Assembly: GCF_001570605.1 (NCBI RefSeq)
Contig: NZ_BBXG01000005.1
Span: 1-64,000, forward strand
Source of the DNA: Herbidospora cretacea
GTDB lineage: Bacteria > Actinomycetota > Actinomycetes > Streptosporangiales > Streptosporangiaceae
DNA: 64,000 nucleotides
Reading direction: 5' to 3'
In this document: positions 19,090-40,285 of the stretch, piece by piece
Layout of the letters: the number at the start of each line of letters is the position of its first letter
How positions within the stretch are numbered: position 1 is the stretch's first letter
Made by a program: the position numbers and the translations under genes
The notes under the pieces: model-generated
The model's database searches: none
What the model saw: the letters and a program-made list of their open reading frames with translations, nothing else
What the model was told of the DNA's origin: nothing

Positions 19090-19103
19090 TGGGAGCGCTC
19101 CCA
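19090..19103. promoter_or_regulatory. CebR operator (box 1)
   Basis: Perfect 14-bp palindrome TGGGAGCGCTCCCA, the known consensus for the LacI-family cellobiose repressor CebR of Streptomyces. It lies 208 bases upstream of the cebE start and 130 bases from box 2. Confidence 0.92.
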
Positions 19104-19219
19104 ACTGCGGATATGCGCTTTTTGTGCCTTTTAATCCCATTCGATGTCGCTAACCGTTACAGGAGTAACAGTTAGGTTTCGGCATATTGACGGGTGCGTT
19201 GCCCATAGTGGACTCTTCG

Positions 19220-19233
19220 TGGGAGCGCTCCCA
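19220..19233. promoter_or_regulatory. CebR operator (box 2)
   Basis: Second perfect TGGGAGCGCTCCCA, ending 77 bases before the cebE start codon. Two boxes 130 bp apart could allow repressor looping across the promoter; the GTTAGGTTTCGGCATATTGACG stretch between them is a likely promoter area, but I cannot assign -35/-10 boxes with confidence. Confidence 0.92.
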
Positions 19234-19310
19234 ACCTGCTGAGCAGTCGGGGGTCGGCCGGGAGCCCACCTTCAGTCACAGATTCGGGAACCACCTGAGA
19301 GGGGTCCGGA

Positions 19311-20651
19311 ATGATGAACAACACGCGCCGCGGTGTGCTCGCGGCCGTGGCCGCAGGGGCGCTGGCCTTCACGGCCGCCGCCTGCGGCGGCGACGAGGCA
19401 CCCGCAGCGGCACCAAGCGCGGGCGGCTCCGCGGCCCCTGCCGAGAAGATCGAGATCACGCTGAACACCTTCGGCGGCGGCGAGAACTTCGCCTACGACG
19501 ACGCGGTGGCCCAGTGGAACGCCGCGAACCCGAACGTCCAGGTCAAGTACGTCAACCTGACGGACCGGTTCGAGGACACCTATCTGCCGCAGGTCCTGCA
19601 GTGGCTTGAGGCCGGCAGCGGCGCCGGCGACATCATCGCGATGGACGAGGGCGCCATGGGTCTCATGGCCGCCCGCCCGCAGTACTTCGCCGACCTCGGC
19701 CAGTACGGCCTCGACAGCCGTAAGGCCGACTACCCCGCGTTCAAGTACGACGTGGGCGTCAACACCGAGGGCAAGCTGTTCGCCCTCGGCACCGACATCG
19801 GCGGCATGGCCATGTGCTACCGCACCGACCTGTTCGAGAAGGCCGGCCTGCCGACCAACCGCGACGAGGTCTCCAAGCTCTGGCCGACGTGGAACGACTA
19901 CCTCGAGGTCGGCAAGAAGTTCAAGGCCAAGGTCCCGGACGCGGGCTTCGTCGACGGCGCCAACACCGTGTACAACTCGGTGCTCGCCCAGGAGGCCGGC
20001 AAGAACGGCGGCCTCTACTACTTCGACAAGAACCAGGGCCTCGTGGTCGACAAGAACCCGGGCGTCAAGGCCGCGTTCGACTACGTCCAGTCCCTCAGCA
20101 CCGCGGGCCTGACCGCCAAGCTCCGCTCCTGGAGCGAGGAGTGGAACACCGCGATGCAGAAGGGTGGCTTCGCCACCATGGGCTGCCCCTCGTGGATGCT
20201 CGGCGTGATCTCCGGCACCTCCGGCGACTCCAACGCCAAGAAGTGGGACGTCGCGGCGGTGCCCGGCGGCTCCGGCAACTGGGGCGGCTCCTGGCTGATG
20301 GTCCCCTCGCAGAGCAAGCACCCGAAGGAGGCCGCCGACGTCCTCAACTTCCTGACCGGGAAGGACGGACAGGTCGCGGCGTTCAAGGAAGGCGGCAACT
20401 TCCCGAGCGCCATCCCGGCGCAGCAGGACCCGACCGTCGCGGACGCGAAGAACGCCTACTTCAACGACGCCCCGAGCGGCCCGATCTTCGCCGCCTCGGT
20501 CGCGAAGCTGGCCCCGGTGTTCTTCGGTGAGAAGCACGCGCAGGTCAAGGCGGCCGTCGAGGAGGTCCTCGTGGGCGCCGACCAGGGCTCGGTCAAGTGG
20601 GACGAGGCCTGGACCCGCTTCGTGGAGGAGGGCGTGAAGGCCGCGGGCTGA
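19311..20651 (+). CDS. cebE: CebE, cello-oligosaccharide-binding lipoprotein of an ABC transporter
   Basis: 446 residues of the family 1 extracellular solute-binding type. MMNNTRRGVLAAVAAGALAF leads to a lipobox-like TAAACGGDE, so the mature protein should be lipid-anchored outside the membrane. Sugar-binding-protein features include VAQWNAANPNVQVKYVN, GDIIAMDEGAMGL and the GLPTNRDEVSKLWPTWNDYLEVGKKF hinge segment. GAGAGGGG precedes the ATG pair. It is first in the cebEFG-bglC operon under two CebR boxes and by homology and context binds cellobiose/cellotriose. The ATPase (MsiK in Streptomyces) is not encoded here, as is usual for this operon. Two tandem hairpins follow. Confidence 0.9.
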   Translation: MMNNTRRGVLAAVAAGALAFTAAACGGDEAPAAAPSAGGSAAPAEKIEITLNTFGGGENFAYDDAVAQWNAANPNVQVKYVNLTDRFEDTYLPQVLQWLEAGSGAGDIIAMDEGAMGLMAARPQYFADLGQYGLDSRKADYPAFKYDVGVNTEGKLFALGTDIGGMAMCYRTDLFEKAGLPTNRDEVSKLWPTWNDYLEVGKKFKAKVPDAGFVDGANTVYNSVLAQEAGKNGGLYYFDKNQGLVVDKNPGVKAAFDYVQSLSTAGLTAKLRSWSEEWNTAMQKGGFATMGCPSWMLGVISGTSGDSNAKKWDVAAVPGGSGNWGGSWLMVPSQSKHPKEAADVLNFLTGKDGQVAAFKEGGNFPSAIPAQQDPTVADAKNAYFNDAPSGPIFAASVAKLAPVFFGEKHAQVKAAVEEVLVGADQGSVKWDEAWTRFVEEGVKAAG

Positions 20652-20749: not shown

Positions 20750-21724
20750 ATGAGCCTCAGCGTCGACGCGGGCGCCCGGACCCGCACGGTGCCGCCCGGG
20801 CCGCGGCGGCACGCGCGCCCGCCGGGCGGCCGGCGACTGCTCTCCTGGCTGGACCTGCGGGCCGCCCCCTATTTCTTTGTCTCGCCCTATTTCATCCTGT
20901 TCGCGATCTTCGGTATCTTCCCGCTGATCTTCACCGCCTGGGTCTCGCTGCACGACTGGCAGCTCGCCGGCGACAAGACGTTCATCGGGTTCGAGAACTA
21001 CTCCGAACTGCTCGTGGACGACAAGTTCTGGAACGCGGTGCTCAACACCGTCGGCATCTTCGTGATCGCGACGGTTCCCCAGCTGCTGCTGGCGCTGCTG
21101 CTGGCCAACGCACTGAACAAGAAACTCCGCGGCCGGCTGGTGCTGCGGCTGAGCGTGCTCGCGCCGCTCATCACCTCGGTCGTGGCCGTCGCGGTCGTCT
21201 TCACCCAGCTGTACGGCCGTGACTACGGCCTGGTCAACTGGGTCCTGGGCGGCTTCGGGGTCGACCCGATCCACTGGCAGAACGAGAAGTGGTCGTCGTG
21301 GATCGCCATCGCCACGATGATCGACTGGCGGTGGACCGGCTACAACGCGATCATCTACCTGGCCGCGATGCAGACCATCCCCAAGGACCTCTACGAGGCC
21401 GCCGCGATCGACGGCGCCTCGCCGCGCCGCCAGTTCTGGGGCATCACGGTCCCGCTGCTCAAGCCCACGATCATCTTCACCGTCATCGTCTCGACGATCG
21501 GCGGCTTCACCCTGTTCGCCGAACCGGTGATGTTCGGCGCCGGCCTGATGACCGGCGGCACGACGGGCCAGTTCCAGACGGTGGCCATGTTCATCGTCAA
21601 GGAGGGCTTCCGGGACTTCCAGTACGGCTACGCCGCGGCCGCGGCCTGGATCCTGTTCCTGCTCATCATGATCACCGCCCTGATCAACTTCGCCATCGTC
21701 CGCGGCATCGGGAGATCACGATGA
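20750..21724 (+). CDS. cebF: CebF, cellobiose ABC transporter permease
   Basis: 324 residues, six predicted membrane segments after a basic N-terminus (first one PYFFVSPYFILFAIFGIFPLIF). The cytoplasmic EAA loop EAAAIDGASPRRQFWGITVP (about 220-240) contacts the ATPase. The ATG at 20750 has GAAAGG 6 bases upstream; a TTG six bases earlier is possible. The stop overlaps the cebG ATG (ATGA). With CebG it forms the membrane channel that imports cellobiose delivered by CebE. Confidence 0.92.
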   Translation: MSLSVDAGARTRTVPPGPRRHARPPGGRRLLSWLDLRAAPYFFVSPYFILFAIFGIFPLIFTAWVSLHDWQLAGDKTFIGFENYSELLVDDKFWNAVLNTVGIFVIATVPQLLLALLLANALNKKLRGRLVLRLSVLAPLITSVVAVAVVFTQLYGRDYGLVNWVLGGFGVDPIHWQNEKWSSWIAIATMIDWRWTGYNAIIYLAAMQTIPKDLYEAAAIDGASPRRQFWGITVPLLKPTIIFTVIVSTIGGFTLFAEPVMFGAGLMTGGTTGQFQTVAMFIVKEGFRDFQYGYAAAAAWILFLLIMITALINFAIVRGIGRSR

Positions 21725-22620
21725 CGACGCTCACCCACCGCGCCCCGAAGAGCCCGCCGCGGCGGCGGTCGCGGGCCGGCGCCGACGGGCTCGACCCGTT
21801 CCGCGCCACCACGATGACCAAGGCGATGCTGGGCCTGGCGATCTTCCTGTCGATCTTCCCGATCTACTGGATGATCGTCATCGCGACCCGCACCAACGAG
21901 GACGCGCACAGCATGCCGCCGCCGCTGCTCCCGGCCGGCAACCTGGGCGAGAACATCCAGGCCGTGTTCGCGGCCGAGAACGCCCACTTCATGACGGGCA
22001 TCATCAACTCGATCATCATCGCCACCACGGTGACGGTCGGCATCGTGATCATCTCGACCCTGGCCGGGTTCGCGTTCGCCTCGCTCACCTTCCGGGGCCG
22101 GAACCTGCTGCTGCTGTCGGTCGTGCTGACCATGATGGTGCCGCTGCAGCAGATGGGCATCGTGCCGCTCTACCAGATGATGGTCACGCTGGGCTGGACG
22201 AACACCCTGAAAGCGGTCATCCTGCCGTTCCTGGTGAACGGCTTCGGGGTGTTCCTCATGACGCAGTACACGCGGCAGGCCGTACCGAGGGAACTGGTCG
22301 AGGCCGCGCGGGTCGACGGGGCGAGCACCCTGCGGATCTGGTGGAACGTCGCGGTGCCGGCGGTCCGTCCGGGCATGGCGGTGCTGGCGATCCAGACATT
22401 CATGCTGATCTGGAACGAGTTCCTCTGGCCTCTCATCGTGCTCACGCCGGACAATCCGACTGTGCAAGTCGCGCTGCGGGCCCTCAACGACCGATATTCC
22501 ACGAACTACGTGCTCATCTTCGCGGGCACCACCATCTCGATCATTCCGCTTCTGCTGGTATTCGTCTTTTTCGGCCGTCAGATCATCGGCGGACTCATGG
22601 AAGGTGCGGTCAAGGAGTGA
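21721..22620 (+). CDS. cebG: CebG, cellobiose ABC transporter permease
   Basis: 299 residues, MalG-type, six membrane segments (first one MTKAMLGLAIFLSIFPIYWM). The EAA motif is EAARVDGASTLRIWWNVAVP (about 200-219). It starts within the cebF stop and overlaps bglC by 4 bases (GTGA), so the permeases and the cytoplasmic glucosidase are co-translated. Completes the heterodimeric permease. Confidence 0.92.
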   Translation: MTTLTHRAPKSPPRRRSRAGADGLDPFRATTMTKAMLGLAIFLSIFPIYWMIVIATRTNEDAHSMPPPLLPAGNLGENIQAVFAAENAHFMTGIINSIIIATTVTVGIVIISTLAGFAFASLTFRGRNLLLLSVVLTMMVPLQQMGIVPLYQMMVTLGWTNTLKAVILPFLVNGFGVFLMTQYTRQAVPRELVEAARVDGASTLRIWWNVAVPAVRPGMAVLAIQTFMLIWNEFLWPLIVLTPDNPTVQVALRALNDRYSTNYVLIFAGTTISIIPLLLVFVFFGRQIIGGLMEGAVKE

Positions 22621-24053
22621 CCCAGAACACAGAGACCCAGATCGACACCCCCGGTCTGGTGTTCCCCACCGGCTTCGTCTGGGGCAGCGCGACATCGGCC
22701 TACCAGATCGAGGGCGCCCTCTCGGCCGACGGCCGGGGCCGCTCCATCTGGGACACCTTCGCCGCGCAACCCGGCCGGGTCGTCGGCGGCGACGACGCGT
22801 CGGTGGCGATCGACCACTACAACCGCTACCGCGACGACGTGCGGCTGATGGCCGACCTGGGGCTGACCGCCTACCGGTTCTCGCTCTCCTGGACGCGGAT
22901 CCAGCCCGACGGCAAGGGCGAGGTCAACGCCAAGGGGCTCGACTTCTACAAGCGCCTGGTCGACGAGCTGCTCTCCTACGGCATCACGCCGTGGGTGACG
23001 CTCTATCACTGGGATCTGCCGCAGGCCCTCGAGGACGAGGGCGGATGGCCCTCACGTGATCTGTCGAAGCGCTTCGCGGACTTCGCCGCTATCGCCCACG
23101 GCGCCCTGGGCGACCAGGTGTCCAACTGGGCCACGGTCAACGAGCCGTGGTGCGCGGCCTTCCTGGGCTACTCCTCGGGCGAGCACGCCCCCGGCCGCCG
23201 CAACCCGGCGGAGTCGATCAAGGCCGCCCACCACCTGAACCTGGCCCACGGCCTGGCCGTCCAGGCGATGCGGGCCCAGCGCACCGACACGCGGATCGGC
23301 GGCTGCGTCAACCTGTACGCGATCAGCCCCCAGAGCGACAGCGAGGCCGACCTCGACGCCGCCCGCCGCATCGACGGCATGCAGAACCGTTTCTTCCTCG
23401 ACGCCCTCATGCGCGGCGCCTACCCGCAGGACGTCCTCGACGACCTGACGCCGCTGATCGCGCCCGAGGAGTACATCAAGGACGGCGACATGGAGCTGAT
23501 CGCGGCTCCGCTCGACATGCTGCTGATCAACTACTACAGCCGCTTCACCGTCACCGGCGCCGAGGGCGGCCCCAAGTCCGCCTCGGCGGCCCCGACGGAC
23601 TCGGGCTCGGCGTGGCCGGGCAACGAGCACGTGGGCTTCGTCAACGGCGGCCGCCCGGTCACCGGGATGGGCTGGGAGGTCGACGGCACGGGCCTGTTCG
23701 AGGTGCTGACCCGGCTGCGTGACGAGTACCCCGCCGTCCCTCTGTACATTTCAGAGAACGGCGCGGCCTACGACGACGTGCTCACCGAGGACGGCACCGT
23801 CCACGACGCCGAACGTCAGGCCTACATCGACACCCACCTGAGGGTCTGTCACCAGGCCATCGAGGCGGGCGTGCCGCTGGAGGGCTACTTCGCCTGGTCG
23901 CTCATGGACAATTTCGAGTGGGCGTGGGGCTACGGCAAAAGATTCGGCCTCGTTTACGTGGACTATCCAACCCAGGCGCGCATCCTGAAAGATAGCGCTC
24001 TCTGGTATGCCGAGACCATTCGGCACGGGGGCCTCCGAGGTCCGGCACAATAG
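22617..24053 (+). CDS. bglC: BglC, cytoplasmic GH1 beta-glucosidase
   Basis: 478 residues, full-length (beta/alpha)8 GH1 enzyme. The acid/base Glu is in ATVNEPW and the nucleophile Glu is in YISENGAAYDD; the aglycone/glycone motifs FVWGSATSAYQIEGA, YRFSLSWTRIQP, YHWDLPQAL and WSLMDNFEWAWGYGKRFGLVYVDY are intact. No signal peptide, so it hydrolyses cellobiose to glucose inside the cell after CebEFG import. In thaxtomin-producing Streptomyces the equivalent enzyme also tunes the intracellular CebR ligand level. The GTG start overlaps the cebG stop. Confidence 0.93.
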   Translation: MTQNTETQIDTPGLVFPTGFVWGSATSAYQIEGALSADGRGRSIWDTFAAQPGRVVGGDDASVAIDHYNRYRDDVRLMADLGLTAYRFSLSWTRIQPDGKGEVNAKGLDFYKRLVDELLSYGITPWVTLYHWDLPQALEDEGGWPSRDLSKRFADFAAIAHGALGDQVSNWATVNEPWCAAFLGYSSGEHAPGRRNPAESIKAAHHLNLAHGLAVQAMRAQRTDTRIGGCVNLYAISPQSDSEADLDAARRIDGMQNRFFLDALMRGAYPQDVLDDLTPLIAPEEYIKDGDMELIAAPLDMLLINYYSRFTVTGAEGGPKSASAAPTDSGSAWPGNEHVGFVNGGRPVTGMGWEVDGTGLFEVLTRLRDEYPAVPLYISENGAAYDDVLTEDGTVHDAERQAYIDTHLRVCHQAIEAGVPLEGYFAWSLMDNFEWAWGYGKRFGLVYVDYPTQARILKDSALWYAETIRHGGLRGPAQ

Positions 24054-24080: not shown

Positions 24081-25100
24081 ATGAACGGGGACCGCCGCAC
24101 GGTCGCGCGGCCGACGCTCGAGGCCGTCGCCGCGCGGGCCGGAGTCGGGCGAGGAACGGTTTCACGGGTCATCAACGGCTCGCCGAAGGTGAGCGAGAAG
24201 GCCCGCGACGCCGTCCTGCTCGCCATCGACGAACTCGGCTACGTGCCCAACCGGGCGGCGCGCACTCTCGTCACCAACCGGACCGACACCATCGCCCTGG
24301 TGGTGTCGGAGTCCGAGCAGCGCGTGTTCGACGAGCCTTACTTCGCCGGCCTGATCAGGGGGATCGGGTCGGCGCTGGCCGAGACGGGCCTCCAGCTCAT
24401 CCTGAGCATGGCCCAGAACCGGAACGAACACGACCGCCTGGAGCACTATCTGACAGGGCAACACGTCGACGGCGTCCTGCTGACCTCGGTCCACGGCGCC
24501 GACCCTCTGCCCGGACGGCTGGAGGAACTGGGCGTCCCGACCGTTCTCGGTGGCCGGCCGGTGGGGCTCAACCCCTACAGCTATGTCGACATGGACAACC
24601 GGGCAGGGGCCCGGCAGGCGATCAAATACCTGCTCGGCAAGGGCCGCAGGCGCATCGCGACCATCGCCGGCCCCCAGGACATGGGCGTGGGCGTCGACCG
24701 TCTCGCGGGCTACCGCGACGCCCTGCTCGCCACGGGCCTGACCGAGCGGGTCGCCTACGGCGACTTCTCCGAGGAGAGCGGCTCGACGGCGATGCGCGAA
24801 CTCCTCGACCGCCACCCCGACATGGACGCCGTCTTCGCGGCCTCCGACCCGATGGCGGTGGGCGCGCTGCGGGTGCTCCGGGAGCGCGGCTGCTCGATCC
24901 CGCAGGACGTGGCGCTCATCGGCTTCGAGGACTCGAAGGTGGCCCTCCACACGGAGCCGCCGCTGACCAGCGTCCACCAGCCGACCGAGGCGATGGGCCG
25001 TCAGATGGTCCAGCTCCTGGTCTCCCGGATCAACGGGGAACCTCTGGAGCAGCCGGTCGTCATCCTCGACACCCACCTGGTGATCAGGGCGTCGACCTGA
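24081..25100 (+). CDS. cebR: CebR, LacI-family cellobiose-responsive repressor
   Basis: 339 residues. N-terminal helix-turn-helix and hinge (LEAVAARAGVGRGTVSRVINGSPKVSEKA, then ELGYVPNRAARTLVT), followed by a periplasmic-binding-protein-like effector domain (about 65-339). It lies 27 bases after bglC with GGGGGCAGGA before the ATG. Four exact copies of the CebR operator are present in the window, none immediately before cebR itself, so it is probably expressed by read-through from the ceb operon and is subject to that autoregulation. Cellobiose or cellotriose is the expected inducer. Confidence 0.92.
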   Translation: MNGDRRTVARPTLEAVAARAGVGRGTVSRVINGSPKVSEKARDAVLLAIDELGYVPNRAARTLVTNRTDTIALVVSESEQRVFDEPYFAGLIRGIGSALAETGLQLILSMAQNRNEHDRLEHYLTGQHVDGVLLTSVHGADPLPGRLEELGVPTVLGGRPVGLNPYSYVDMDNRAGARQAIKYLLGKGRRRIATIAGPQDMGVGVDRLAGYRDALLATGLTERVAYGDFSEESGSTAMRELLDRHPDMDAVFAASDPMAVGALRVLRERGCSIPQDVALIGFEDSKVALHTEPPLTSVHQPTEAMGRQMVQLLVSRINGEPLEQPVVILDTHLVIRAST

Positions 25101-25555: not shown

Positions 25556-25664
25556 GGGGGTCCCTTCACGTGCCCAGGGCACCTTGAGGTGCGTTCTTCC
25601 CGCTGGGGACGGTCGTCCCTAGCGTCGGAGTCGACGGTTCCACCTTCGCACGGGAGTGACGCAC

Positions 25665-28918: not shown

Positions 28919-28932
28919 TGGGAGCGCTCCCA
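28919..28932. promoter_or_regulatory. CebR operator upstream of the NRPS (box 3)
   Basis: Perfect TGGGAGCGCTCCCA, identical in all 14 bases to the boxes before cebE. It ends 112 bases before the NRPS start codon and is over 400 bases from the GT1 start, so it should chiefly control the NRPS operon. Confidence 0.88.
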
Positions 28933-32000: not shown

Positions 32001-34348
32001 TGAACCTCGACGCGGTCGGCGTCGAAGACGACTTCATGGCGCTGGGCGGCCACTCGCTGCTGCTCATCCGCATGATCGCCAAGCTCCGCCAGACGATGCC
32101 CGACAAGCCGATCAGCGTCGTCGACGCGCTGGCCAACCGGACCGTGGCCGCCCTCGCGGCCCTGGTCGACGGGCCCGCCGAGGACTCCGGCGGCCTGCTG
32201 GTGAGGCTGACGCCGCCGATCCCCGCCCCCACGACGACCCTCGTCTGCGTCCCCTACGGCGGCGGCAGCGCGGTCGTCTACCAGGCGCTCGCCGAGGCCT
32301 TACCGAAGGGCGTCGCGCTCCAGGCCGTCGCCCTCCCCGGTCACGAACTCGGCGTCGACGAGGAGGTCCTCCCCTTCGACGAGGCCGCCGAGAAGATCTG
32401 CGAAGAGATCCTGGCCAAGGTCAAGGGCCCTCTGGTCCTGTACGGCCACTGCGTCGGCAGCGCCCTCACGACCGAGATCGCCCGCCGCGTCGAGGCGGCC
32501 GGCCGCGAGATCGACGCCGTCTACATCGCCGGCAGCTTCCCGTTCGCCGTCCCGACCAAGGGACTGAGCGGCCTGCTGAACAAGCACTACTTCAACAACC
32601 GCAGGCTGCGGAACAACAACTCCGAGGCCAACTGGCTGCGCGCCATCGGCGCCGACCTCGACGGCCTCGGCACCGACGAGGTCGAGCGCATCGTCACCAC
32701 CATGCGCTCCGACGCCAAGGCGGGCGAGGCCTACTTCACCCGGCTCATCGACGAGGGCGCGACCCCGCTGAAGGCCCCGCTGATCTCGATCGTCGGCAGC
32801 CGCGACCCGATCACCGACTTCTACGAGGAGCGCTACCGCGACTGGCACGTCACCGCCAGGACGACGGCCCTCGTGGTGATCGACGAGGCGGGCCACTACT
32901 TCCTGCGCTACCGGGCCGAGGAGCTGGCCCGGATCATCACCACCGTCCACACCGACCTCGACGGCCCCCACGGGGAGACGACCTGGCGCAAGGAGGCGGT
33001 CTCCCGGGAGAAGCCCGCCGCGGAGGCCACGCTCGGCCGGTTCCTGCGGGTGGCCACCGGCCAGACCGTGTCGATGGTCGGCACGGCGATGACCGAGTTC
33101 GCGGTGCCGATCTGGGCCTACCTGAAGACCGGCTCGCTCCTCCAGTTCAGCCTGTTCGCGATCATCGCGCTGGTCCCCGGCCTGGTGCTGTCGCCGCTGG
33201 TCGGCGCGCTGGTCGACCGCAGCGACCGGCGCCGGGCGATGCTCATCGGCGACGGCGCGTGCCTGGGCCTCCAGGCGCTCATGCTCGGGCTCCTGCTCAC
33301 CGACACCCTCCCGATGCCCGCGCTGTACGGCATCCTCGTCCTGCTCAGCGTCGCCCTCACCGTGCAGCGCCTGGCCTGGGCGTCGGCCGTGCCGCAACTG
33401 GCCCCCAAGCACTACCTCGGCCACGCCGGCGGCGTCCTGCAACTGGGCAACGCCATCGGCCGCCTGATGGTCCCGCTGTTCGCGGTCGGGGTGCTGGCCG
33501 CGATCGGGCTGAACGGGATCCTGATCGCCAACGTCGTCTGCTACCTGTTCGCCGTCACCGTCACGCTGCTCACGCCGTTCCCGAAGGCGATGGCCTGGAC
33601 GCGGCGCGAGTCGGTCGGCGCGGAGATCCGCAACGGCTTCACCTACCTGTGGCGGCGGCCGGGCCTGCGGGCGATGGCGATCACCATGTTCGCCGTCAAC
33701 TTCTTCCTGTTCACCGCGTTCACCATGATCTCGCCGCTGGTGCTCTCGATGGGCGACCTCGGCGACACCGGCACGGTGGCCCTGGTCGCGGCGGCCGGCG
33801 CCGTCACGGGCGGGTTCGTGATCTCGATCTGGGGCGGCCCGCGCCGCCGCCGGATGTTCGGGATGCTCGCGGCCGTGGGGGTCGTGGCGCTCTTCGCCTT
33901 CTCGATGGGGCTGCGCCCGTGGCTGCCGCTGGTGGCGGTGGGCGCGGCCGGGATGGCGCTGTTCATGACGATCAGCGACGGCATCTGGATCACGATCATC
34001 CACTCGAAGGTGCCCCAGCGGTACCACGCCCGGGTGATCGCCATCAACCAGATGCTGGCCATGTCGACCCAGCCGATCGGCCTGGCCGTGCAGGCCTGGC
34101 TGGCCGGGCTGGTGTTCGTCCCGCTGCTGCGCGAGGACGGCGCGCTGGCCTCCACGGTCGGCGCCGTGATCGGGGTCGGCGAGGGACGCGGCATCGGCCT
34201 GCTCTACCTGATCTGCGGCCTGGCCATGGCCGTCACGATCGTGCTCGCCCTCCGGCACCGGGCGCTCCGGAACTTCGACCGGGACACCCCCGACGCGGAA
34301 CCCGACGATCTCGTCGGCCTCGCTGAACTGAAGGGAACCTCCGCATGA
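29045..34348 (+). CDS. Single-module NRPS fused to an MFS exporter (C-A-PCP-TE-MFS), Cys-type thioesterase
   Basis: 1767 residues from the GTG at 29045 (AGAAAGG 7 bases upstream). Condensation domain about 45-470 with His172-His173 and Asp177 (CHHIAADGWS). Adenylation domain about 475-955 with FTSGSTGKPKG (about 622), NEYGPTEAT (about 764) and NGKVDRK; my hand-read ten-residue code is D-L-P-K-V-A-E-V-G-K, closest to Asn/Asp-activating domains. PCP with Ser1004 (LGGHSLL). Thioesterase about 1045-1285 in which the nucleophile is Cys1136 (YGHCVGS, codon TGC) with SRDP and AGHYFLR supplying Asp and His. About 1320-1745 is an MFS transporter with about 10-12 membrane segments (LVDRSDRRRAM loop). 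The protein should make, release and export a product at the membrane. Expression is probably CebR-controlled. Confidence 0.9.
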   Translation: MAVTSTSTPGSAPRSSLGGLSPSRQAALARLLTARPKSPIPAVPRDQGPHACSFEQRQMWLGAQLGGAAPAPNATLGLRLDGPLDVPALTAALDALVVRHESLRTVYTGEEPLQVVLDPFPMPLEYHGGPDLAGEVTARAVTRRFDLEAGPVVAATLIRLAEDSHALLVVCHHIAADGWSMGILADELAALYKDALGVPAALAEIPVQYADYAAWSRAELTPETLESRAAYWRGTLGGADPVDLPMRRERPVPDGRRTHTNWSLLAPGTLAGLQAAGGPGTTPFTALLAVFSMLLARYTGTDGVTLATTNGGRRRRELEGVVGCFVNAVPIHGDLSGDPAFPEVAARIRKAVGGALSNQLPLSVLADAVDLKLPVSFSLRGFRDQRGDWPGLTASIWDHEVDHQGYELSLLVHLDGEVTGLDFTYRRDLLDDDDVERMVRHYHHLAAQIVANPAATLAELDLVTPEERATIIGTWNDSARSYPERALPSLLAEHRDSTATAVLFRDRPTSYADLHARAHQIARRLVEEGVTPESTVGVLLDRSPDLIASLLGVWLAGAAYVPMDPAFPPQRLADMLETAGTSLVLTERKYVSRFDGPTVVEVASIDGDATPVDVPLDVDRLAYLIFTSGSTGKPKGVQVTHRGLVNHVWWAVEELAARGTGGAPLLGSVAFDLVVPNLWAPLVTGQTVTVLDQDFDMGELGALLGDRRFSFIKLTPGHLEVLGHQLDDAQAAQLAEVIVVAGEALPGSLADRWLEILGPGRLINEYGPTEATVGTCVYPVTHRQHHEVVPIGAPLPNMRMFVLDQHRRLLPAGVPGELYVGGVGVTRGYVNRPDLTAERFVEFEGERVYKTGDRVLWLPDGNVAFLGRFDDQVKIRGYRIELDEVRAALLDHPGVRDAVAAVHEERLVAYYVPAGNPVRDLAEHCALRLPEYMVPVVFTELDRMPLNANGKVDRKALPAPAASATSAVEPRTETERRIAEVWKEVLNLDAVGVEDDFMALGGHSLLLIRMIAKLRQTMPDKPISVVDALANRTVAALAALVDGPAEDSGGLLVRLTPPIPAPTTTLVCVPYGGGSAVVYQALAEALPKGVALQAVALPGHELGVDEEVLPFDEAAEKICEEILAKVKGPLVLYGHCVGSALTTEIARRVEAAGREIDAVYIAGSFPFAVPTKGLSGLLNKHYFNNRRLRNNNSEANWLRAIGADLDGLGTDEVERIVTTMRSDAKAGEAYFTRLIDEGATPLKAPLISIVGSRDPITDFYEERYRDWHVTARTTALVVIDEAGHYFLRYRAEELARIITTVHTDLDGPHGETTWRKEAVSREKPAAEATLGRFLRVATGQTVSMVGTAMTEFAVPIWAYLKTGSLLQFSLFAIIALVPGLVLSPLVGALVDRSDRRRAMLIGDGACLGLQALMLGLLLTDTLPMPALYGILVLLSVALTVQRLAWASAVPQLAPKHYLGHAGGVLQLGNAIGRLMVPLFAVGVLAAIGLNGILIANVVCYLFAVTVTLLTPFPKAMAWTRRESVGAEIRNGFTYLWRRPGLRAMAITMFAVNFFLFTAFTMISPLVLSMGDLGDTGTVALVAAAGAVTGGFVISIWGGPRRRRMFGMLAAVGVVALFAFSMGLRPWLPLVAVGAAGMALFMTISDGIWITIIHSKVPQRYHARVIAINQMLAMSTQPIGLAVQAWLAGLVFVPLLREDGALASTVGAVIGVGEGRGIGLLYLICGLAMAVTIVLALRHRALRNFDRDTPDAEPDDLVGLAELKGTSA

Positions 34349-34665
34349 CCCCCACCGAATCCGCCGTCGCCGAGATCTGGACCGAGCTGCTCGGCCAGGC
34401 TCCGCCGTCGATCGACGACGACTTCTTCGAACTCGGCGGCCAGTCGCTGACGATGGTCCAGTTCCTGGCCCGGGTCGAGGAGCAGTTCGGCGTCGAGTTA
34501 CCCATCGACGTGCTGTTCGCCAGCGGTTTCACCGTCGCGGAGGCCTCGAAGGCGATCGACCAGGGCCGGATCGCGGCCGTCGACGACGACGAGCTGGCCG
34601 CGCTGCTGAAGCAGCTCGACGGCATGTCGGACGACGAGATCAACGAGCTGCTGTCGGACGCATGA
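34345..34665 (+). CDS. Free-standing peptidyl/acyl carrier protein
   Basis: 106 residues, with one carrier domain whose phosphopantetheine Ser is Ser34 (FFELGGQSLTMVQF). After helix 4 an acidic tail follows (DDDELAALLKQLDGMSDDEINELL), similar to the C-terminal extensions found at the ends of assembly-line modules, perhaps for docking. It overlaps the NRPS stop by 4 bases (ATGA), so it is made with it. No separate adenylation domain is encoded in the cluster. I infer that this carrier holds the acyl or aminoacyl donor for the NRPS condensation domain, possibly loaded by the E2-like acyltransferase downstream. Confidence 0.87.
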   Translation: MTPTESAVAEIWTELLGQAPPSIDDDFFELGGQSLTMVQFLARVEEQFGVELPIDVLFASGFTVAEASKAIDQGRIAAVDDDELAALLKQLDGMSDDEINELLSDA

Positions 34666-35882
34666 GAATCCTGCTCGCCCAGAACATGTTCCACCTGCCC
34701 AGCCACGGCGGGGCGAACAAGTCCAACCGCATCATGATGGAGCAGCTCGCGGCCCGCGGCCACGAGTGCCACGTGGTGGCCCCGATGAGCGGCGCGCTGC
34801 GCGACACCTCGGCCGACGACCACGTGACGTACCTCAAGGGGCTGGGCGCCGAGGTCGTCTCGGCCACCCCCGACGTCCTGGAATACGTGTACAACGGGGT
34901 GCGGGCACACGTGGTCACGCGGGCCTCCCTGCTGGCCCGGGAGATCGGCGAGGTGGCCGCCTCGGTCACCCCCGACTGGACGCTGGTGCCCTCCGACGAC
35001 CCCGGGCTGATCGTGCTCGGCGCGGCGCTGAAGGCCACCCCCGAGCGGGTCGTCTACCTGGCCCACACCCTCCAGCAGCTGCCGTTCGGTCCGGGCGCGT
35101 TCTACCCGAGCGCGGCCGGGACGCGGATGGTGCGGCGGGCGGCCTCGGTCGTGGCGGTGAGCCAGGCCGCGGGGACGTACCTGAAGACGTGGGGCGAGAT
35201 CTCGTCCACGCTCATCTACCCCCACATCTACGGCGATCCGCCGGAGCTCCCCGCCGGGGACCTGGTCGCGATGATCAACCCGTGCGGCTACAAGGGGCTG
35301 AGCGTCCTGCTCGGGCTCGCCGACGCGCGGCCGGAGGTCCGGTTCCTGGCCGTCCCCACCTGGGGAACCACGCCCGACGACCTCGGCGAGCTGCGGAGAC
35401 GGCCCAACATCGAGATCGGGCAGCCCTCCGACGACATCGACGACATCCTGTCGCGGGCCAAGGTCCTGCTCATGCCGTCGCTCTGGGACGAGACCTTCGG
35501 GTACGCCTGCGTCGAGGCCATGGCCCGGGGCGTCCCGGTGATCGCCAGCGCCGTCGGCGGCCTGTCGGAGGCCAAGCTCGGCGTGCCCTACTCGGTCCCG
35601 GTGCGGAGCATCGAGCGGTACGAGTCGGTCGGCCAGGCCAGGCCCGTCCCGGTCGTCCCGCCGCAGGACCTCGGCCCCTGGCTGAACGCGCTCGACCCGG
35701 TGATCGGAGACGACGACCTGCGCCGCCACCTGGCCCGCCGGTCGCGCAAGGCCGCGCTCGGCTTCATCGCCTCGCTCGACGACGGCGCCCTGGAGACCCA
35801 CCTCACCACCCTGCGCCCCAACCGCCGCCTCGCCGCCCTGGCGGCGCTGGCCGCGGCCCGCGCGAAGGAGTCACAGTCATGA
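34662..35882 (+). CDS. Family 4 glycosyltransferase of the NRPS cluster
   Basis: 406 residues. N-terminal acceptor domain RILLAQNMFHLPSHGGANKSNRIMMEQLAARGHE, then VAVSQAAGTYL, INPCGYKGLSVLLGLADARPEVRF and the donor-binding acidic loop MPSLWDETFGYACVEAMARGVPVIAS (about 268-294). A retaining GT-B enzyme for a nucleotide sugar. It overlaps both neighbours by 4 bases, so it is an integral part of the operon. With the GT1 gene it makes the product likely to be a glycoside. No signal peptide. Confidence 0.85.
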   Translation: MRILLAQNMFHLPSHGGANKSNRIMMEQLAARGHECHVVAPMSGALRDTSADDHVTYLKGLGAEVVSATPDVLEYVYNGVRAHVVTRASLLAREIGEVAASVTPDWTLVPSDDPGLIVLGAALKATPERVVYLAHTLQQLPFGPGAFYPSAAGTRMVRRAASVVAVSQAAGTYLKTWGEISSTLIYPHIYGDPPELPAGDLVAMINPCGYKGLSVLLGLADARPEVRFLAVPTWGTTPDDLGELRRRPNIEIGQPSDDIDDILSRAKVLLMPSLWDETFGYACVEAMARGVPVIASAVGGLSEAKLGVPYSVPVRSIERYESVGQARPVPVVPPQDLGPWLNALDPVIGDDDLRRHLARRSRKAALGFIASLDDGALETHLTTLRPNRRLAALAALAAARAKESQS

Positions 35883-36790
35883 TCGGAGCGGTGCGGGAGC
35901 GCACCCTGACGCCGGTGTCCGAGGCCGACCTGTCGCGGATGCTGCGGATCCGGCACTTCGAGAAGGCGCTGCTGCGCCTGTTCGAACAGGGCCGCCTGAA
36001 CGGCACCACCCACACCTGCCTGGGCCAGGAGCACGTCCCGGTCGCGGTCAGCGCCCTGCTCCGGCCGGAGGACCACGTCTTCAGCAACCACCGGGGGCAC
36101 GGCCACTTCCTGGCCCGCTACGACGAGCCGCACGCCCTGCTGGCCGAGATCACCGGCCGCGAGGGCGCGCTCTGCAACGGGGTCGGCGGCAGCCAGCACA
36201 TCTACCACGAGCGGTTCCTGTCGACGGGCGTCCAGGGCGAGTCGCTGCCGGTGGCGGTCGGGGTCGCGCTGCGGCACAAGCGGACCGGCGACGGGATCGC
36301 CTGCGCGTACATCGGCGACGGCACCTGGGGCGAGGGCTCGGTGTACGAGGCCCTGAACATGGCCCAGGTCTGGGGCGCGCCGCTCCTGGTCGTGGTCGAG
36401 CACAACCGGATCGCCCAGTCGACCCCGACGGCCGCGCAGATGGCGGGCTCGATCGCGGGCCGCTGCGCCGGGTTCGGGGTGGCCCACCACCGGGTGGAGT
36501 CGGTCGACGTCAACGTGGTGCGGGCCGAGCTGTCCGGGCTGCTGGAGACGGTGCGGCGGGACAAGCGCCCGGCCGTGTTCGAGGTCTCGGTCCACCGGGC
36601 CGGCCCGCACAGCAAGGGCGACGACACCCGGACCGCCGCCGAGCTGGCCGAGGCCGCCGCCGGGGACTGGTACGCGCACTACGCGCGGGACTTCCCCGCG
36701 CAGGTCGCGGCGCTGGAGGAGATCGAGCGGGCGTTCATCGACGCCGCCGTCGAGAACGTGCTGGCCCGTCCCCTGTCGGAGTGGTCATGA
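35879..36790 (+). CDS. Thiamine-diphosphate dehydrogenase E1 component, alpha subunit
   Basis: 303 residues. RMLRIRHFEKALLRLFEQGRLNGTTHTCLGQE opens the subunit; the ThDP/Mg motif is YIGDGTWGEGSVYEALNMAQVWGAPLLVVVEHN (GDG to NN-type, about 143-175, here ending in HN). SNHRGHGHFLA and GVGGSQH are the conserved His and ThDP loops. Such E1 proteins decarboxylate a 2-oxo acid and pass the acyl group to a lipoyl domain. ATG overlaps the GT4 stop. Its placement in an NRPS operon, away from central metabolism, implies a dedicated acyl supply; acyloin formation is the other option. Confidence 0.88.
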   Translation: MIGAVRERTLTPVSEADLSRMLRIRHFEKALLRLFEQGRLNGTTHTCLGQEHVPVAVSALLRPEDHVFSNHRGHGHFLARYDEPHALLAEITGREGALCNGVGGSQHIYHERFLSTGVQGESLPVAVGVALRHKRTGDGIACAYIGDGTWGEGSVYEALNMAQVWGAPLLVVVEHNRIAQSTPTAAQMAGSIAGRCAGFGVAHHRVESVDVNVVRAELSGLLETVRRDKRPAVFEVSVHRAGPHSKGDDTRTAAELAEAAAGDWYAHYARDFPAQVAALEEIERAFIDAAVENVLARPLSEWS

Positions 36791-37770
36791 GAGTCGCCGA
36801 GCACCTGAACCGGTCCCTGCACGCCCTGCTGGAGAAGGACCCCTCGGTCCACGTGCTGGGCGAGGACATCTCCGATCCGTACGGCGGCGCGTTCAAGATC
36901 ACCAAAGGCCTGTCCGACCGGTTCGGCCCGCGCGTGATGTCCACGCCGCTGTCCGAGGGGGGCATCGTCGGCGTCGGCGCCGGGCTGGCCCTGGCGGGCG
37001 ACCGGGCCGTCGTGGAGATCATGTTCGGCGACTTCGCCACGCTGGCCTTCGACCAGCTCGTGAACTTCGCCGCCAAGTCGACCACCATGTACGGCCGCCC
37101 GGTGGACGTGCCGCTCGTCGTCCGCCTCCCCACCGGCGGCCGGCGCGGCTACGGCCCCACCCACAGCCAGAGCCTCCAGAAGCACTTCATCGGCGTCCCG
37201 GGCCTGTCGGTGTACGAGATGAGCCCCTTCCACGACGCCGAGGCCCTGTTCACCGAGATCTTCGGCAGCGGGCGCCCGGCCGTCTTCTTCGAGGACAAGG
37301 TCCTCTACACCAAGCCGATGCTCAGCGGCGGCGACGGCCTGCACACCTTCGAGGTGCGCGACGGCTGGGCGGTCATCCGCGCCGAACAGAACACCGAGGA
37401 CGTCCTGGTGGCCCCGGGCGGCCTGACCGACCGGGCCCTGACCGCCCTGCGCGACCTGCTGGTCGAGGACGAGATCGCCTGCACGCTGCTGGTCCCCGCC
37501 CGCCTCCACCCGCTCGACGTGACCCCGGTCGCCGACGTCCTGCACGCCGCCCGGCGGGTGCACGTCGCGGAGGACGGCACGGCCGGCGGCACGTGGGGCG
37601 CGGAGGTGGCCCGGCTGCTGCACGAGCGGCTGTGGGGCCGGCTCACCGCGCCGATCACGCACATCTCCGCGCCCGACTCGATCATCCCGACGGCCGCCCA
37701 CCTCGAGGCCCGCTGCACCGTCCAGGCCGCCGACATTCGCGCACACATTCAGAGGGCGATCAGCAGGTGA
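36787..37770 (+). CDS. Thiamine-diphosphate dehydrogenase E1 component, beta subunit
   Basis: 327 residues from the ATG at 36787, which overlaps the E1-alpha stop. Hallmarks: VLGEDISDPYGGAFKITKGL, RVMSTPLSEGGIVGVGAGLALAG (with the Glu that activates ThDP), EIMFGDFATLAFDQLVNFAAK and PTGGRRGYGPTHSQSLQKHFIGVPGL. The C-terminal transketolase-type domain contains the usual RRVHVAEDGTAGGTWGAEV segment. Forms an alpha2beta2 E1 with the previous gene product. No lipoamide dehydrogenase (E3) gene lies in the operon, so oxidation, if needed, would rely on a housekeeping E3. Confidence 0.88.
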   Translation: MRVAEHLNRSLHALLEKDPSVHVLGEDISDPYGGAFKITKGLSDRFGPRVMSTPLSEGGIVGVGAGLALAGDRAVVEIMFGDFATLAFDQLVNFAAKSTTMYGRPVDVPLVVRLPTGGRRGYGPTHSQSLQKHFIGVPGLSVYEMSPFHDAEALFTEIFGSGRPAVFFEDKVLYTKPMLSGGDGLHTFEVRDGWAVIRAEQNTEDVLVAPGGLTDRALTALRDLLVEDEIACTLLVPARLHPLDVTPVADVLHAARRVHVAEDGTAGGTWGAEVARLLHERLWGRLTAPITHISAPDSIIPTAAHLEARCTVQAADIRAHIQRAISR

Positions 37771-38852
37771 CCGAATTCCGCATTCCGAAACTGAACAACA
37801 ACGACGACAGCTACATTCTCGTCGAATGGCTCGCGGCCGACGGTCAGGAAGTGCGGCAGGGCGAACCCCTGGTGGTCATCGAGACCTCGAAGACGGCCGA
37901 GGAACTCGAAAGTCCGGCCGACGGGACACTGGTCATCCGGGTCCATTCCGGTGACTGCGCGCCGGGCGAACTCATCGCCGCCATCGGCGCCGCGGTGGAC
38001 GTCGTGGAGCCGGTCGTGCCGGAGGTCCCCCCGCTGGAGTCCGGCGAGATCGACGTCGTCATCACCCGCCCGGCCCAGGTGCTCATCGAGCGGCACGGCA
38101 TCACGCTGGAGCGGGTCCGCGCGCTGGGCAAGAAGGTGGTCCGCGCCGAGGACGTGGCGGCGCTGTCCGACTCCCGGGAGATCGTCCGGCTGCCGAAGGC
38201 GCAGCGCCAGGCGGCCGACGTGGTCGTGCTGTCGCACCAGACCATCCCCGCGGCCTTCACCGTGGTCAAGGCCAACGTGACCGACATGGCCAAGCTCACC
38301 CGCGACCTGTCCAAGCACGCCCGGACGCTGATCGGCCTGTCGGAGCTGCTGGTCAAGGCGGTGGCCGACCAGCGCGCCGAGTTCCCGCACCTGTTCTCCA
38401 CGTGGCTGGGCGACGGCCGGATCCGGCTCGCCGGGGGCTCGCACGTCGGCGTCACCATCGACGTCGGCAAGGGCCTGTTCGTGCCGGTCGTCCGCGACGC
38501 GGACGCACGTCCGCTCGACGCGGTGGCCCGCGAGCTCATGGACTACCGGATGACCGCGCTGCGCGGCAGCTTCCGCGAGCGCGACCTGGAGGGCGCCAAC
38601 ATCGCCGTCACCCTCCACACCGAGGCGGGCGTGGAGCTCGCCGTCCCGATCATCCATCCCGGCCACGTGGCGGCGCTCTCGCTCGCCTCGACCCTCCAGG
38701 AGGTCCAACCGGCCGATGAAGGTTTCACGGTCCGCCAGACGGTCCGCATCGGCCTCGCCTTCGACCACCGTGTCGTGAACGGCCGGGACGCCGCGCTCTT
38801 CCTCGGAGCGGTGAAACGGTTGCTGGAAGAACCGCGCAGATGGTTGGAATAA
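37767..38852 (+). CDS. E2-like lipoyl-dependent dihydrolipoamide acyltransferase
   Basis: 361 residues from the GTG at 37767, overlapping the E1-beta stop (GTGA). One lipoyl domain (about 1-80) with Lys42 in VVIETSKTAEE. A short peripheral-subunit-binding-like segment (VLIERHGITLERVRALGKKVVRAEDV, about 105-130). The catalytic acyltransferase domain (about 150-361) ends with the active-site FDHRVVNGRDAALFL, with Asn in place of the common Asp as in some PDH E2 proteins. It should accept the acyl group made by the E1 subunits and move it to CoA, or, as I infer from context, to a carrier-protein pantetheine. Related E2-like acyltransferases load ACP-bound precursors in tetronate pathways. Confidence 0.87.
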   Translation: MTEFRIPKLNNNDDSYILVEWLAADGQEVRQGEPLVVIETSKTAEELESPADGTLVIRVHSGDCAPGELIAAIGAAVDVVEPVVPEVPPLESGEIDVVITRPAQVLIERHGITLERVRALGKKVVRAEDVAALSDSREIVRLPKAQRQAADVVVLSHQTIPAAFTVVKANVTDMAKLTRDLSKHARTLIGLSELLVKAVADQRAEFPHLFSTWLGDGRIRLAGGSHVGVTIDVGKGLFVPVVRDADARPLDAVARELMDYRMTALRGSFRERDLEGANIAVTLHTEAGVELAVPIIHPGHVAALSLASTLQEVQPADEGFTVRQTVRIGLAFDHRVVNGRDAALFLGAVKRLLEEPRRWLE

Positions 38853-38926
38853 CGCGTCGTGGTGTATTTGTGCTGATGTCACTCAGCGCCGCCGGCGCCT
38901 GCGCCGCAGACCGACCGAGGAGAACC

Positions 38927-40225
38927 ATGACGCCCGTACGCTTCCCGCGCGACTTCGTCTGGGGGGCGGCGACCTCCGCCTTCCAGGTCGAGGGGGCCAC
39001 CAAGGAAGACGGCAGGGGGGTGTCGGTGTGGGACACCTTCGCCGCCACCCCCGGCAAGGTCCACGGCGGGGACACCGGCGACCCGGGCGCCGACCAGTAC
39101 CACCGCTACGAGCAGGACATCCGGCTCATGCGCGACCTCGGCCTGGAGAGCTACCGCTTCTCCGTCGCCTGGCCGCGCATCCAGCCCACCGGCACCGGCC
39201 GCCCGAACCTGAAGGGCCTGGACTTCTACAAGCGCCTGGTCGACGGCCTGGTCGGCGCCGGGATCCGCCCGATGGTGACCCTCTTCCACTGGGACCTGCC
39301 GCAGGCCCTGCAGGACGAGGGCGGCTGGGAGAACCGCGACACGGCCCACCGTTTCGCCGAGTACGCCGAGATCATGTTCGACGCCCTGCACGTCCGCGAC
39401 TGGCTCACCATCAACGAGCCGAAGACCGTCGTCGACTGCGGCTACCGCACCGGCATCCACGCCCCCGGCGTCAGCGACGACGACCGCGCCCTGGTGGCCT
39501 GCCACCACCTGCTGCTGGCCCACGGCCTGGCCGCGCGGGTGCTGCACGACTCCCACCCCGGCCGCCGGATCGGCCCCGCGCTGAACCTCCACCCGACCTA
39601 CCCGGCCGACGACTCGCCCGAGGCCAAGGAGGCCGCCCGCCTCCAGGACGCCCGCGAGAACCGCCTCTACCTGGAGCCCGTCTTCAACGGGACCTACCCG
39701 GAGGAGGCCATGACCCGCCATGACATGATCATGGACGGAGACATGGACGTCATCAGCGAGAAGGTCGACGTGCTCGGCGTGCAGTACTACACCCCGCTTT
39801 TCATGGACGCCGACCAGCGGCGCGTCGTCCGCCACCCGGTCAGGGTGGCGAACTGGCTGGAGGACTACCCCGACGGCCTGCACGACATCCTGATGCGCGT
39901 CACCCGCGACCACCCGGGCGTGCCGATCGTCATCACCGAGAACGGCCTGGCGACCGACGACTCGGTGGCCGAGGACGGCGGCGTCCACGACGACGACCGC
40001 GTGAGTTATCTACGCGGCCACATCGGCGCCATGCACCGCGCGATGAAAGCGGGTGCGAAGGTCGAGGGATATCACGTGTGGTCGCTCCTCGACAATTTCG
40101 AATGGGCCGAAGGCTATTCCCAGCGTTTCGGCGTCGTGCACGTCGACTACGAAACGCAGAAGCGAACTCCGAAGGACAGCGCGCTGTGGTACCGGGACCT
40201 TATCGAAACCGGCGAACTGCGTTGA
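38927..40225 (+). CDS. GH1 beta-glucosidase at the end of the NRPS operon
   Basis: 432 residues from the ATG at 38927, chosen for GAGGAG 4 bases upstream and the normal GH1 opening VRFPRDFVWGAATSAFQVEGA. Acid/base Glu in LTINEPK and nucleophile Glu in VITENGLATDD are present, as are FHWDLPQAL and WSLLDNFEWAEGYSQRFGVVHVDY. An in-frame ATG at 38840, overlapping the E2 stop, would add 29 residues with a twin-Arg/hydrophobic, export-like stretch, but its first codons use A/T third positions foreign to this genome, so I doubt it. Only 74 bases follow the E2 gene. It probably removes a glucosyl group from the cluster product or processes a beta-glucoside inducer. Confidence 0.85.
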   Translation: MTPVRFPRDFVWGAATSAFQVEGATKEDGRGVSVWDTFAATPGKVHGGDTGDPGADQYHRYEQDIRLMRDLGLESYRFSVAWPRIQPTGTGRPNLKGLDFYKRLVDGLVGAGIRPMVTLFHWDLPQALQDEGGWENRDTAHRFAEYAEIMFDALHVRDWLTINEPKTVVDCGYRTGIHAPGVSDDDRALVACHHLLLAHGLAARVLHDSHPGRRIGPALNLHPTYPADDSPEAKEAARLQDARENRLYLEPVFNGTYPEEAMTRHDMIMDGDMDVISEKVDVLGVQYYTPLFMDADQRRVVRHPVRVANWLEDYPDGLHDILMRVTRDHPGVPIVITENGLATDDSVAEDGGVHDDDRVSYLRGHIGAMHRAMKAGAKVEGYHVWSLLDNFEWAEGYSQRFGVVHVDYETQKRTPKDSALWYRDLIETGELR

Positions 40226-40271
40226 CCTGGCATTTGTTCGTTGACTCATCCACCCATAGAACACTAGGTTG

Positions 40272-40285
40272 TGGGAGCGCTCCCA
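40272..40285. promoter_or_regulatory. CebR operator upstream of the aldose epimerase operon (box 4)
   Basis: Perfect TGGGAGCGCTCCCA, the fourth identical copy in the window, ending 84 bases before the epimerase GTG and 46 bases after the GH1 stop. Confidence 0.9.

Follow-up and report, generated by a model that had tools for sequence, protein, structure and literature searches.

Exact CebR boxes before cellobiose uptake genes, a nonribosomal peptide synthetase operon and a mutarotase operon in Herbidospora cretacea

The closest described counterpart of the system considered here is the CebR/CelR regulon of actinobacteria. In Streptomyces the CebR consensus TGGGAGCGCTCCCA is found upstream of cellulose-induced genes (PMC4898821), and CelR sites, perfect and with one mismatch, have been surveyed in actinobacteria (PMC3377646). 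A different palindrome, TGGGACGCGTCCCA, is given as the top-scoring CebR site in PMC10714786; the consensus of PMC4898821 is followed here. The nonribosomal peptide synthetase (NRPS) genes of the thaxtomin cluster of Streptomyces scabiei are also under this cellobiose repressor, the sites being imperfect (CGGGAGCGCTCCCA and GGGGAGCGCTCCCA) and placed either inside txtB or at -786/-900 relative to the starts (PMC12527672). For CebR, the curated list of that paper gives only the thaxtomin cluster, and no CebR-controlled NRPS beyond thaxtomin is among the matches listed for CebR/CelR in the accessible open-licence literature. The DNA analysed here, referred to as the window, is a stretch of 64,000 nucleotides of Herbidospora cretacea (assembly GCF_001570605.1, contig NZ_BBXG01000005.1, positions 1 to 64,000, forward strand). 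It shares with the CebR/CelR regulon the same 14-bp palindrome, a cebR gene beside cebEFG-bglC and, in the rest of the genome, boxes before cellulases, and it differs in that two NRPS loci, one in the window and one elsewhere in the genome, also carry the box.

As judged from the DNA, it is highly probable that the boxes are operators of CebR, through which cellobiose uptake, an NRPS operon and a galM-kinase operon would be governed jointly and released by cello-oligosaccharides; production of the NRPS compound would very probably be tied to the digestion of cellulose. CebR control of NRPS genes, predicted here, is already known for thaxtomin, and what is new is a perfect, promoter-proximal site, conserved in four genera, before an apparently unstudied NRPS family having an obafluorin-type thioesterase. 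Unlike the thaxtomin sites, the Herbidospora NRPS box is perfect, and the start codon follows at a distance of 126 bp. Biosynthetic clusters often stay silent for want of a known trigger; in this case the sequence points to the repressor and to the likely inducer, cello-oligosaccharides, for a cluster family conserved in four genera, and the search for the product would reduce to growing soil actinomycetes, not known to be pathogens, on cellobiose and deleting cebR. CebR control of NRPS genes would also reach beyond plant-pathogenic Streptomyces to ordinary degraders of cellulose, and this bears on the question of whether the thaxtomin wiring is special to pathogens or a case of a wider pattern.

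Four boxes and the repressor gene

The box, the 14-bp palindrome TGGGAGCGCTCCCA, occurs exactly at 19090, 19220, 28919 and 40272, as the first-pass annotation had reported from reading the letters, and a search of the whole window finds no other perfect copy and no further site at ≤2 mismatches; at ≤3 mismatches four extra places appear, all with three mismatches. When the window is shuffled 100 times, a mean of 0.74 sites is found and one shuffle in 100 reaches four, a comparison that covers the ≤2-mismatch search, not the exact matches. In the whole genome (8.28 Mb, 36 contigs) there are 16 exact sites and none for the reversed control, and across 27 genomes (Herbidospora and two related genera) the count is 411 exact sites, 11-19 per genome, against a single control match. 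The assignment of the palindrome to CebR, also made in the first pass, holds well, being the same as the consensus of PMC4898821 and lying, in the genome, mostly at cellulases and cellulose-uptake genes.

The boxes are intergenic and stand upstream of plus-strand genes, as had been noticed, these genes being cebE (19311), the NRPS gene (GTG at 29045) and the aldose 1-epimerase gene (GTG at 40370). The copies at 19090 and 19220 both precede cebE, so three promoters are concerned, not four. The box at 28919 also lies between divergent genes, the called start of the minus-strand glycosyltransferase gene being 421 bp away. Gene starts are those of a simple composition-based caller and the operon limits are taken from gene spacing. 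The features are as follows.

19090..19103, plus strand: CebR box 1, exact match, upstream of cebE
19220..19233, plus strand: CebR box 2, exact match, upstream of cebE, 130 bp after box 1
19311..20651, plus strand: cebE-like sugar-binding protein (SBP_bac_8, SBP_bac_1)
20750..21724, plus strand: cebF-like permease (BPD_transp_1)
21721..22620, plus strand: cebG-like permease (BPD_transp_1)
22617..24053, plus strand: bglC-like GH1 beta-glucosidase (Glyco_hydro_1; motifs TVNEP, SENG)
24081..25100, plus strand: cebR, LacI-family repressor (LacI, Peripla_BP_3)
26378..27280, minus strand: TauD-type iron/2-oxoglutarate dioxygenase of the divergent arm (TauD, E 1.1e-33)
27277..28497, minus strand: GT28/macrolide-type glycosyltransferase of the divergent arm (EryCIII-like_C, Glyco_transf_28; MGT subfamily below cut-off)
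28919..28932, plus strand: CebR box 3, exact match, box start 126 bp from the NRPS start codon
29045..34348, plus strand: NRPS with one condensation, one adenylation and one carrier domain, a cysteine thioesterase and a fused MFS exporter (Pfam)
34345..34665, plus strand: stand-alone carrier protein (PP-binding)
34662..35882, plus strand: GT4-type glycosyltransferase (Glycos_transf_1, Glyco_transf_4)
35879..36790, plus strand: E1 alpha subunit binding thiamine diphosphate (ThDP) (E1_dh; PDH_E1_alph_y below cut-off)
36781..37770, plus strand: E1 beta / transketolase pyrimidine-binding subunit (Transket_pyr, Transketolase_C)
37767..38852, plus strand: E2-like lipoyl/acyltransferase (Biotin_lipoyl, 2-oxoacid_dh)
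38927..40225, plus strand: GH1 beta-glucosidase, last operon gene (TIGR03356 BGL, 569.6 bits, cut-off 478.5; motifs TINEP, ITENG)
40272..40285, plus strand: CebR box 4, exact match, upstream of galM
40370..41248, plus strand: aldose 1-epimerase (mutarotase) (Aldose_epim, E 4.8e-42)
41252..42235, plus strand: APH/fructosamine-kinase-like kinase (APH, Fructosamin_kin)

The gene at 24081-25100 is indeed cebR, having LacI and Peripla_BP_3 domains. Its product has 5ysz as best PDB match (E 1.1e-125), with the recognition helix and the hinge identical in both; the PDB listing labels 5ysz only as LacI family, and we take it to be Thermobifida CelR. Orthologs with 91-94% identity and the same helix, GVGRGTVSRVING, are present in the five Acrocarpospora and Microbispora genomes searched, and among the LacI proteins inspected this helix is confined to the CebR orthologs.

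Between cebR and the NRPS locus (25151-26297) lie an HxlR regulator gene (25151-25555), the only other regulator gene found there, and an F420/NADP-oxidoreductase-like gene. The HxlR gene is not seen in the Acrocarpospora locus L095, and the oxidoreductase-like gene is found in one (L168) of the six other named Herbidospora loci.

Conservation of the NRPS box

That a box stands directly before a biosynthetic NRPS operon is borne out by the copy at 28919 and by its orthologs: conservation across orthologous clusters, which the first-pass annotation had proposed as a check, is complete, the box being exact in all 27 genomes found with an NRPS ortholog, comprising seven Herbidospora (the window and 6/6 others), 4/4 Acrocarpospora, 14/14 Microbispora and 2/2 Planobispora. 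All four genera belong to the Streptosporangiaceae. Proteins at least about 60% identical in their thioesterase-MFS half are taken as orthologs, and the search covered the seven Herbidospora genomes and, as a sample from a larger group, 297 of the family; in two members of these genera (G033 and G225) the family search found no close NRPS ortholog. Twenty-three loci came back under names, and the exact box is present in each of them. The GT28-type glycosyltransferase of the divergent arm is also found in all 23, and the TauD dioxygenase (74-94% identical) in 21 of them.

When Herbidospora and Microbispora are aligned on the box without gaps, the 60-nt flanks share 0.26 identity upstream and 0.20 downstream, which is near random, and the box itself is 100% identical. 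Within Herbidospora the same flanks are 88-94% identical, so that conservation in that genus proves little. In the two Microbispora genomes checked, cebR is unlinked from the NRPS gene (7.00 Mb on C1 and 1.32 Mb in one, 7.21 and 0.40 Mb in the other), so that linkage to the ceb locus does not account for the box there.

The box check took in 51 of 63 loci (L119-L169), the other 12 (L170-L181) being remote or partial matches. No box within one mismatch is found in the fetched stretches of 28 remoter NRPS-thioesterase-MFS loci (L139-L166), three of which (L144, L145 and L156) have almost no upstream sequence, and none within two mismatches at either of the relatives L113 and L114. Micromonospora sp. 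NBRC 107566 has the NRPS, carrier, GT4, E1, E1 and E2 genes in the same order and no box. Proteins of the type having an NRPS, a cysteine thioesterase and an MFS domain are common, with matches at E ≤ 1e-150 in 89 of the 297 family genomes and five or six matches per Herbidospora genome; similar proteins occur in Herpetosiphon (L140-L143) and in metagenome-assembled genomes of Chloroflexota (L144, L145).

Proposed control and competing explanations

In the proposed mechanism CebR, when cello-oligosaccharides are lacking, would occupy the boxes and repress three promoters, those of cebEFG-bglC(-cebR), of the NRPS operon with its divergent arm, and of galM-kinase; each box would lie just downstream of or over the promoter, and bound CebR would stop transcription. 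On digestion of cellulose, cellobiose or cellotriose would enter via CebEFG and release CebR, and uptake, hydrolysis, glucose mutarotation and the exported NRPS product would start together. In a mechanical promoter scan of the NRPS loci, 5/7 Herbidospora and 4/4 Acrocarpospora have a -10-like hexamer whose end is 17 nt ahead of the box, and by eye a TTGCG-type element stands before the box in Herbidospora, Acrocarpospora and Microbispora. A fixed promoter-operator geometry over all genera is not claimed, because the scan is inconsistent outside Herbidospora and Acrocarpospora.

Paired boxes 117-134 bp apart recur. At cebE in the window the distance is 130 bp and both copies are exact, and the same distance separates two boxes in Acrocarpospora G130 (C94:40615 and 40745). 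The NRPS of 4/4 Acrocarpospora (L095-L098, near 4200 and 4350) has a pair 124-134 bp apart, in which the outer copy has two mismatches, and a relative of a second NRPS described below (L219-L222) has a pair 117-126 bp apart with one mismatch in the outer copy; the NRPS of the window has a single box. Looping between paired boxes would be a guess.

Several observations weigh against joint control by CebR or against parts of this picture. The -10-like hexamer at the above spacing is not found by the same scan in Microbispora or Planobispora. In S. scabiei there are some clusters whose cellobiose response involves no CebR site or does not depend on cebR (PMC8914351, PMC8552735), so that responding to cellobiose has to be kept apart from being controlled by CebR. 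Two boxes of the H. cretacea genome (L021, L022) have no evident cellulose link, and two more stand at a locus with LacI-like and kinase genes. At E ≤ 1e-30 the genome gives 26 CebR-like matches, one of them CebR itself, and of the other 25 the helices of six have been inspected; several are one or two residues off the CebR helix (for example VSRGTVSRV and VSRATVSRV), which makes cross-binding possible. When considering the product, the dioxygenase is not found in 2/4 Acrocarpospora loci, which argues against an essential hydroxylation.

The similarity of these helices and the number of CebR-like proteins would also allow another LacI-family repressor, rather than CebR, to use the boxes, the more so as two LacI-like genes (C18:138856-139866 and C2:337999-338940) adjoin exact boxes, the first pairing recurring in L215 and L216 and the second in L217. 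However, the helices of these two box-adjacent proteins (VSPATASRV and VSKGAVSYA) are clearly unlike GVGRGTVSRV, one other LacI locus (L212) has its own related palindrome, TGAGAGCGCTCTCA, and cebR itself belongs to a boxed ceb operon, its helix being that of 5ysz. This explanation is considered very unlikely.

The location of the box in a region shared with the divergent genes, in all four genera, raises the possibility that it controls mainly the glycosyltransferase/dioxygenase arm and not the NRPS. The distances speak for the NRPS: in 24/24 loci tested an in-frame NRPS start codon that has a ribosome-binding-like site lies 121-161 bp from the box (L121 and L122 having a second start-codon candidate outside this range), as compared with a distance of 421 bp to the glycosyltransferase start called in the window, and at eight other regulon sites the called start is 66-98 bp away. 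Control mainly of the arm rather than the NRPS is likewise considered very unlikely.

Very unlikely, too, is the explanation that the box serves the terminal GH1 beta-glucosidase, the NRPS being an unselected passenger. The GH1 gene is the last operon gene in Herbidospora and Acrocarpospora, the next box preceding galM; by eye the GH1 protein has no N-terminal signal peptide. In 14/14 Microbispora and 2/2 Planobispora, however, the box stays before the NRPS though GH1, GT4, E1 and E2 genes are not found (tblastn, E ≤ 1e-15, in the 20-22 kb read). A palindrome arisen by chance, or one conserved merely because the sequences are related, to which the shuffling result and the similar Herbidospora flanks lend some room, is practically dismissed by the exactness of the box across four genera between which the flanks are near random and by the 411 sites against one control match.

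The NRPS product, the second NRPS and further regulon sites

The likely product can be approached from the NRPS itself, the domain make-up of which appears to differ from that of txtA/txtB. Alignment gives DLPKVAEVGK as the adenylation code (the last K being assumed); it is the same in 14/14 orthologs tested and different in the paralogs tested. The code positions are those we take to be the usual ones, and the code presumably resembles Asn/Asp codes.

The thioesterase has the obafluorin synthetase ObiF1 (6n8e) as best PDB match (E 1.9e-32); the third match listed, 8w2c, is named in a paper on the SulM monobactam thioesterase. ObiF1 is beta-lactone-forming, and its residues Cys1146, Gly1173, Asp1254, His1284 and Arg1190, the roles of which are described in PMC6668435, align with the same residues of the window thioesterase. 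The Cys, Gly, Asp and His residues are invariant among eight aligned orthologs, and the Arg1190 position is not. The catalytic residues are arranged as in strained-ring thioesterases of the ObiF1 type, with a Cys-Asp-His triad in which Asp is in the ObiF/SulM position, and with Gly for the usual Asp. Such an enzyme would act on a terminal residue bearing a beta-hydroxy (or beta-amino) group, for which the TauD dioxygenase present in 21 of the 23 named loci is a conceivable source. The system differs from the obafluorin synthetase in that the Herbidospora thioesterase is fused to an MFS domain, and no MbtH domain is found in the Pfam scan. The loci L119-L169 were found with peptide patterns including LYGHCVGS, and the conservation of the cysteine thioesterase among them is therefore not evidence; four paralogs of the H. 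cretacea genome and two other proteins, found by overall similarity, have GHCGxG-like motifs.

A carrier, E1 alpha, E1 beta and lipoyl E2 occur in one operon with the NRPS in Herbidospora and Acrocarpospora only, and NCBIfam pyruvate dehydrogenase models match below cut-off. When compared by description, the same four-part make-up is that of the SclQ/Qnc glycolyl cassette (scleric acid, quinocarcin): SclQ1-4 are a carrier, a ThDP, a pyrimidine-binding and a lipoyl/acyltransferase protein of 76, 305, 338 and 386 residues, proposed to load a glycolyl unit from a ketose phosphate onto the carrier (PMC6335953), and the Herbidospora proteins have 106, 303, 329 and 361 residues, a GT4 gene being placed, as a difference, between the carrier and E1 alpha genes. 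In Microbispora and Planobispora an FkbH-carrier protein stands in place of the E1/E2 cassette (FkbH 264.4 bits, cut-off 146.65, for one protein, L100), FkbH homologs being found by tblastn in 13/13 named loci of these two genera and in 0/11 of Herbidospora and Acrocarpospora, the window included. FkbH enzymes load glyceryl units. With this exchange, the box, the adenylation code and the thioesterase are fixed while the hydroxyacyl starter cassette changes. A branched-chain acyl starter from a complex like the branched-chain keto acid dehydrogenase was ranked below the glycolyl cassette after the make-up of SclQ1-4 and the FkbH replacement had been taken into account. In the E2 protein (37767-38852) the canonical motif HxxxDG reads HxxxNG (FDHRVVNG), a change that may have to do with delivery to a carrier protein instead of coenzyme A.

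Judging from these domains, the product is probably a short hydroxyacyl (in Herbidospora glycolyl-type) amide of an Asn/Asp-like amino acid, glycosylated, exported by the MFS domain and probably released by the obafluorin-type cysteine thioesterase. A more far-reaching proposal is put forward only tentatively and is, as a whole, rather doubtful: that in several genera of cellulose-degrading Streptosporangiaceae CebR would turn on cellulases and, jointly with them, a glycosylated compound of hydroxyacyl-amino-acid type bearing a reactive four-membered ring (beta-lactone type) and a starter from sugar metabolism, serving as a dedicated 'public-goods defence' metabolite. If this is true, the glycolyl or glyceryl starter from sugar metabolism would make the same sugar signal, fuel and building block.

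A second NRPS of the genome, on contig C3, also has condensation, adenylation, thiolation (carrier), thioesterase and MFS domains and shares about 49% identity with the first in the thioesterase-MFS half; it is followed by genes for a carrier protein, a glycosyltransferase, a condensation-adenylation-thiolation protein and a GH3 beta-glucosidase. An exact box stands upstream of it in this genome and in 6/6 other Herbidospora (7/7), where it is shared with the divergent gene of an F5/8-domain protein. A relative of this NRPS (55-56% identical) at four loci of the genus Acrocarpospora also has an exact box just upstream, forming the inner member of the pairs mentioned above; the divergent F5/8-domain gene is not found at these four loci. 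They were picked for a box about 3 kb from the match, so that the count for the second NRPS is not independent, and in the fifth Acrocarpospora genome, G130, the relatives at C94:4948 and C116:141066 have no box near them among its 19 sites, the family search having scored three candidates per genome. Three other NRPS-thioesterase-MFS paralogs of the H. cretacea genome (on C1, C8 and C6) have no box within one mismatch in 20 kb, the C1 paralog having one place with two mismatches.

Around the second NRPS, the GH3 gene and an F5/8-DUF1996 gene on C3, another palindrome, GGAGAGCGCTCTCC, occurs four times (joined C3r 7642, 7764, 17957 and 21548), as it does in each of two other Herbidospora checked (L063, L066); it is perhaps the operator of another LacI-family repressor at this locus. 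The C6 paralog locus (joined C6r 12882-18759) has its own E1 alpha, E1 beta and E2 proteins, 60, 61 and 43% identical to those of the window, and a condensation-carrier protein.

The box before galM lies 98 bp from the aldose 1-epimerase gene and is exact in 6/6 other Herbidospora and in 4/4 Acrocarpospora loci. The first-pass annotation had spoken of a sugar-epimerase operon; by Pfam, the two genes encode an aldose 1-epimerase (mutarotase) and an APH/fructosamine-kinase-like kinase, and a biosynthetic operon was rejected on these matches. Beta-glucosidases release beta-glucose, which a mutarotase converts to the alpha form, and an aldose 1-epimerase thus suits catabolism. The operon is probably catabolic rather than biosynthetic.

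Ten of the 16 genomic sites are beside cellulose or sugar genes, two at NRPS genes, two at the LacI-like/kinase locus and two without an evident link; the ten include a family-5 binding protein, of a family often for peptides and counted for its LacI neighbour, and an acetyl xylan esterase (AXE1) at 433 bp. Boxed genes outside the window encode GH6-CBM2, GH9, GH48-CBM2, GH9-CBM and CBM2 proteins, in addition to the esterase and the family-5 solute-binding transporter, which has its own LacI gene. Exceptions to the 66-98 bp spacing are the AXE1 gene, the second NRPS (112 bp) and a small HATPase-domain gene, 18 nt before the called start of which an exact box is located (L021:4579-4592), with no cellulose gene recognised nearby. 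The box at L022:8198-8211 has a methyltransferase gene and a TetR gene nearby and is not far from a contig end. On contig C18 (L023) the boxes at 8255 and 10897 adjoin the LacI-like gene with the VSPATASRV helix, the product of which has an altered hinge and is about 45% identical to CebR; a protein kinase gene lies nearby, and a box beside the same LacI-like gene is present in Acrocarpospora (L215) and Microbispora (L216). This LacI-like protein is possibly a second layer of the CebR network.

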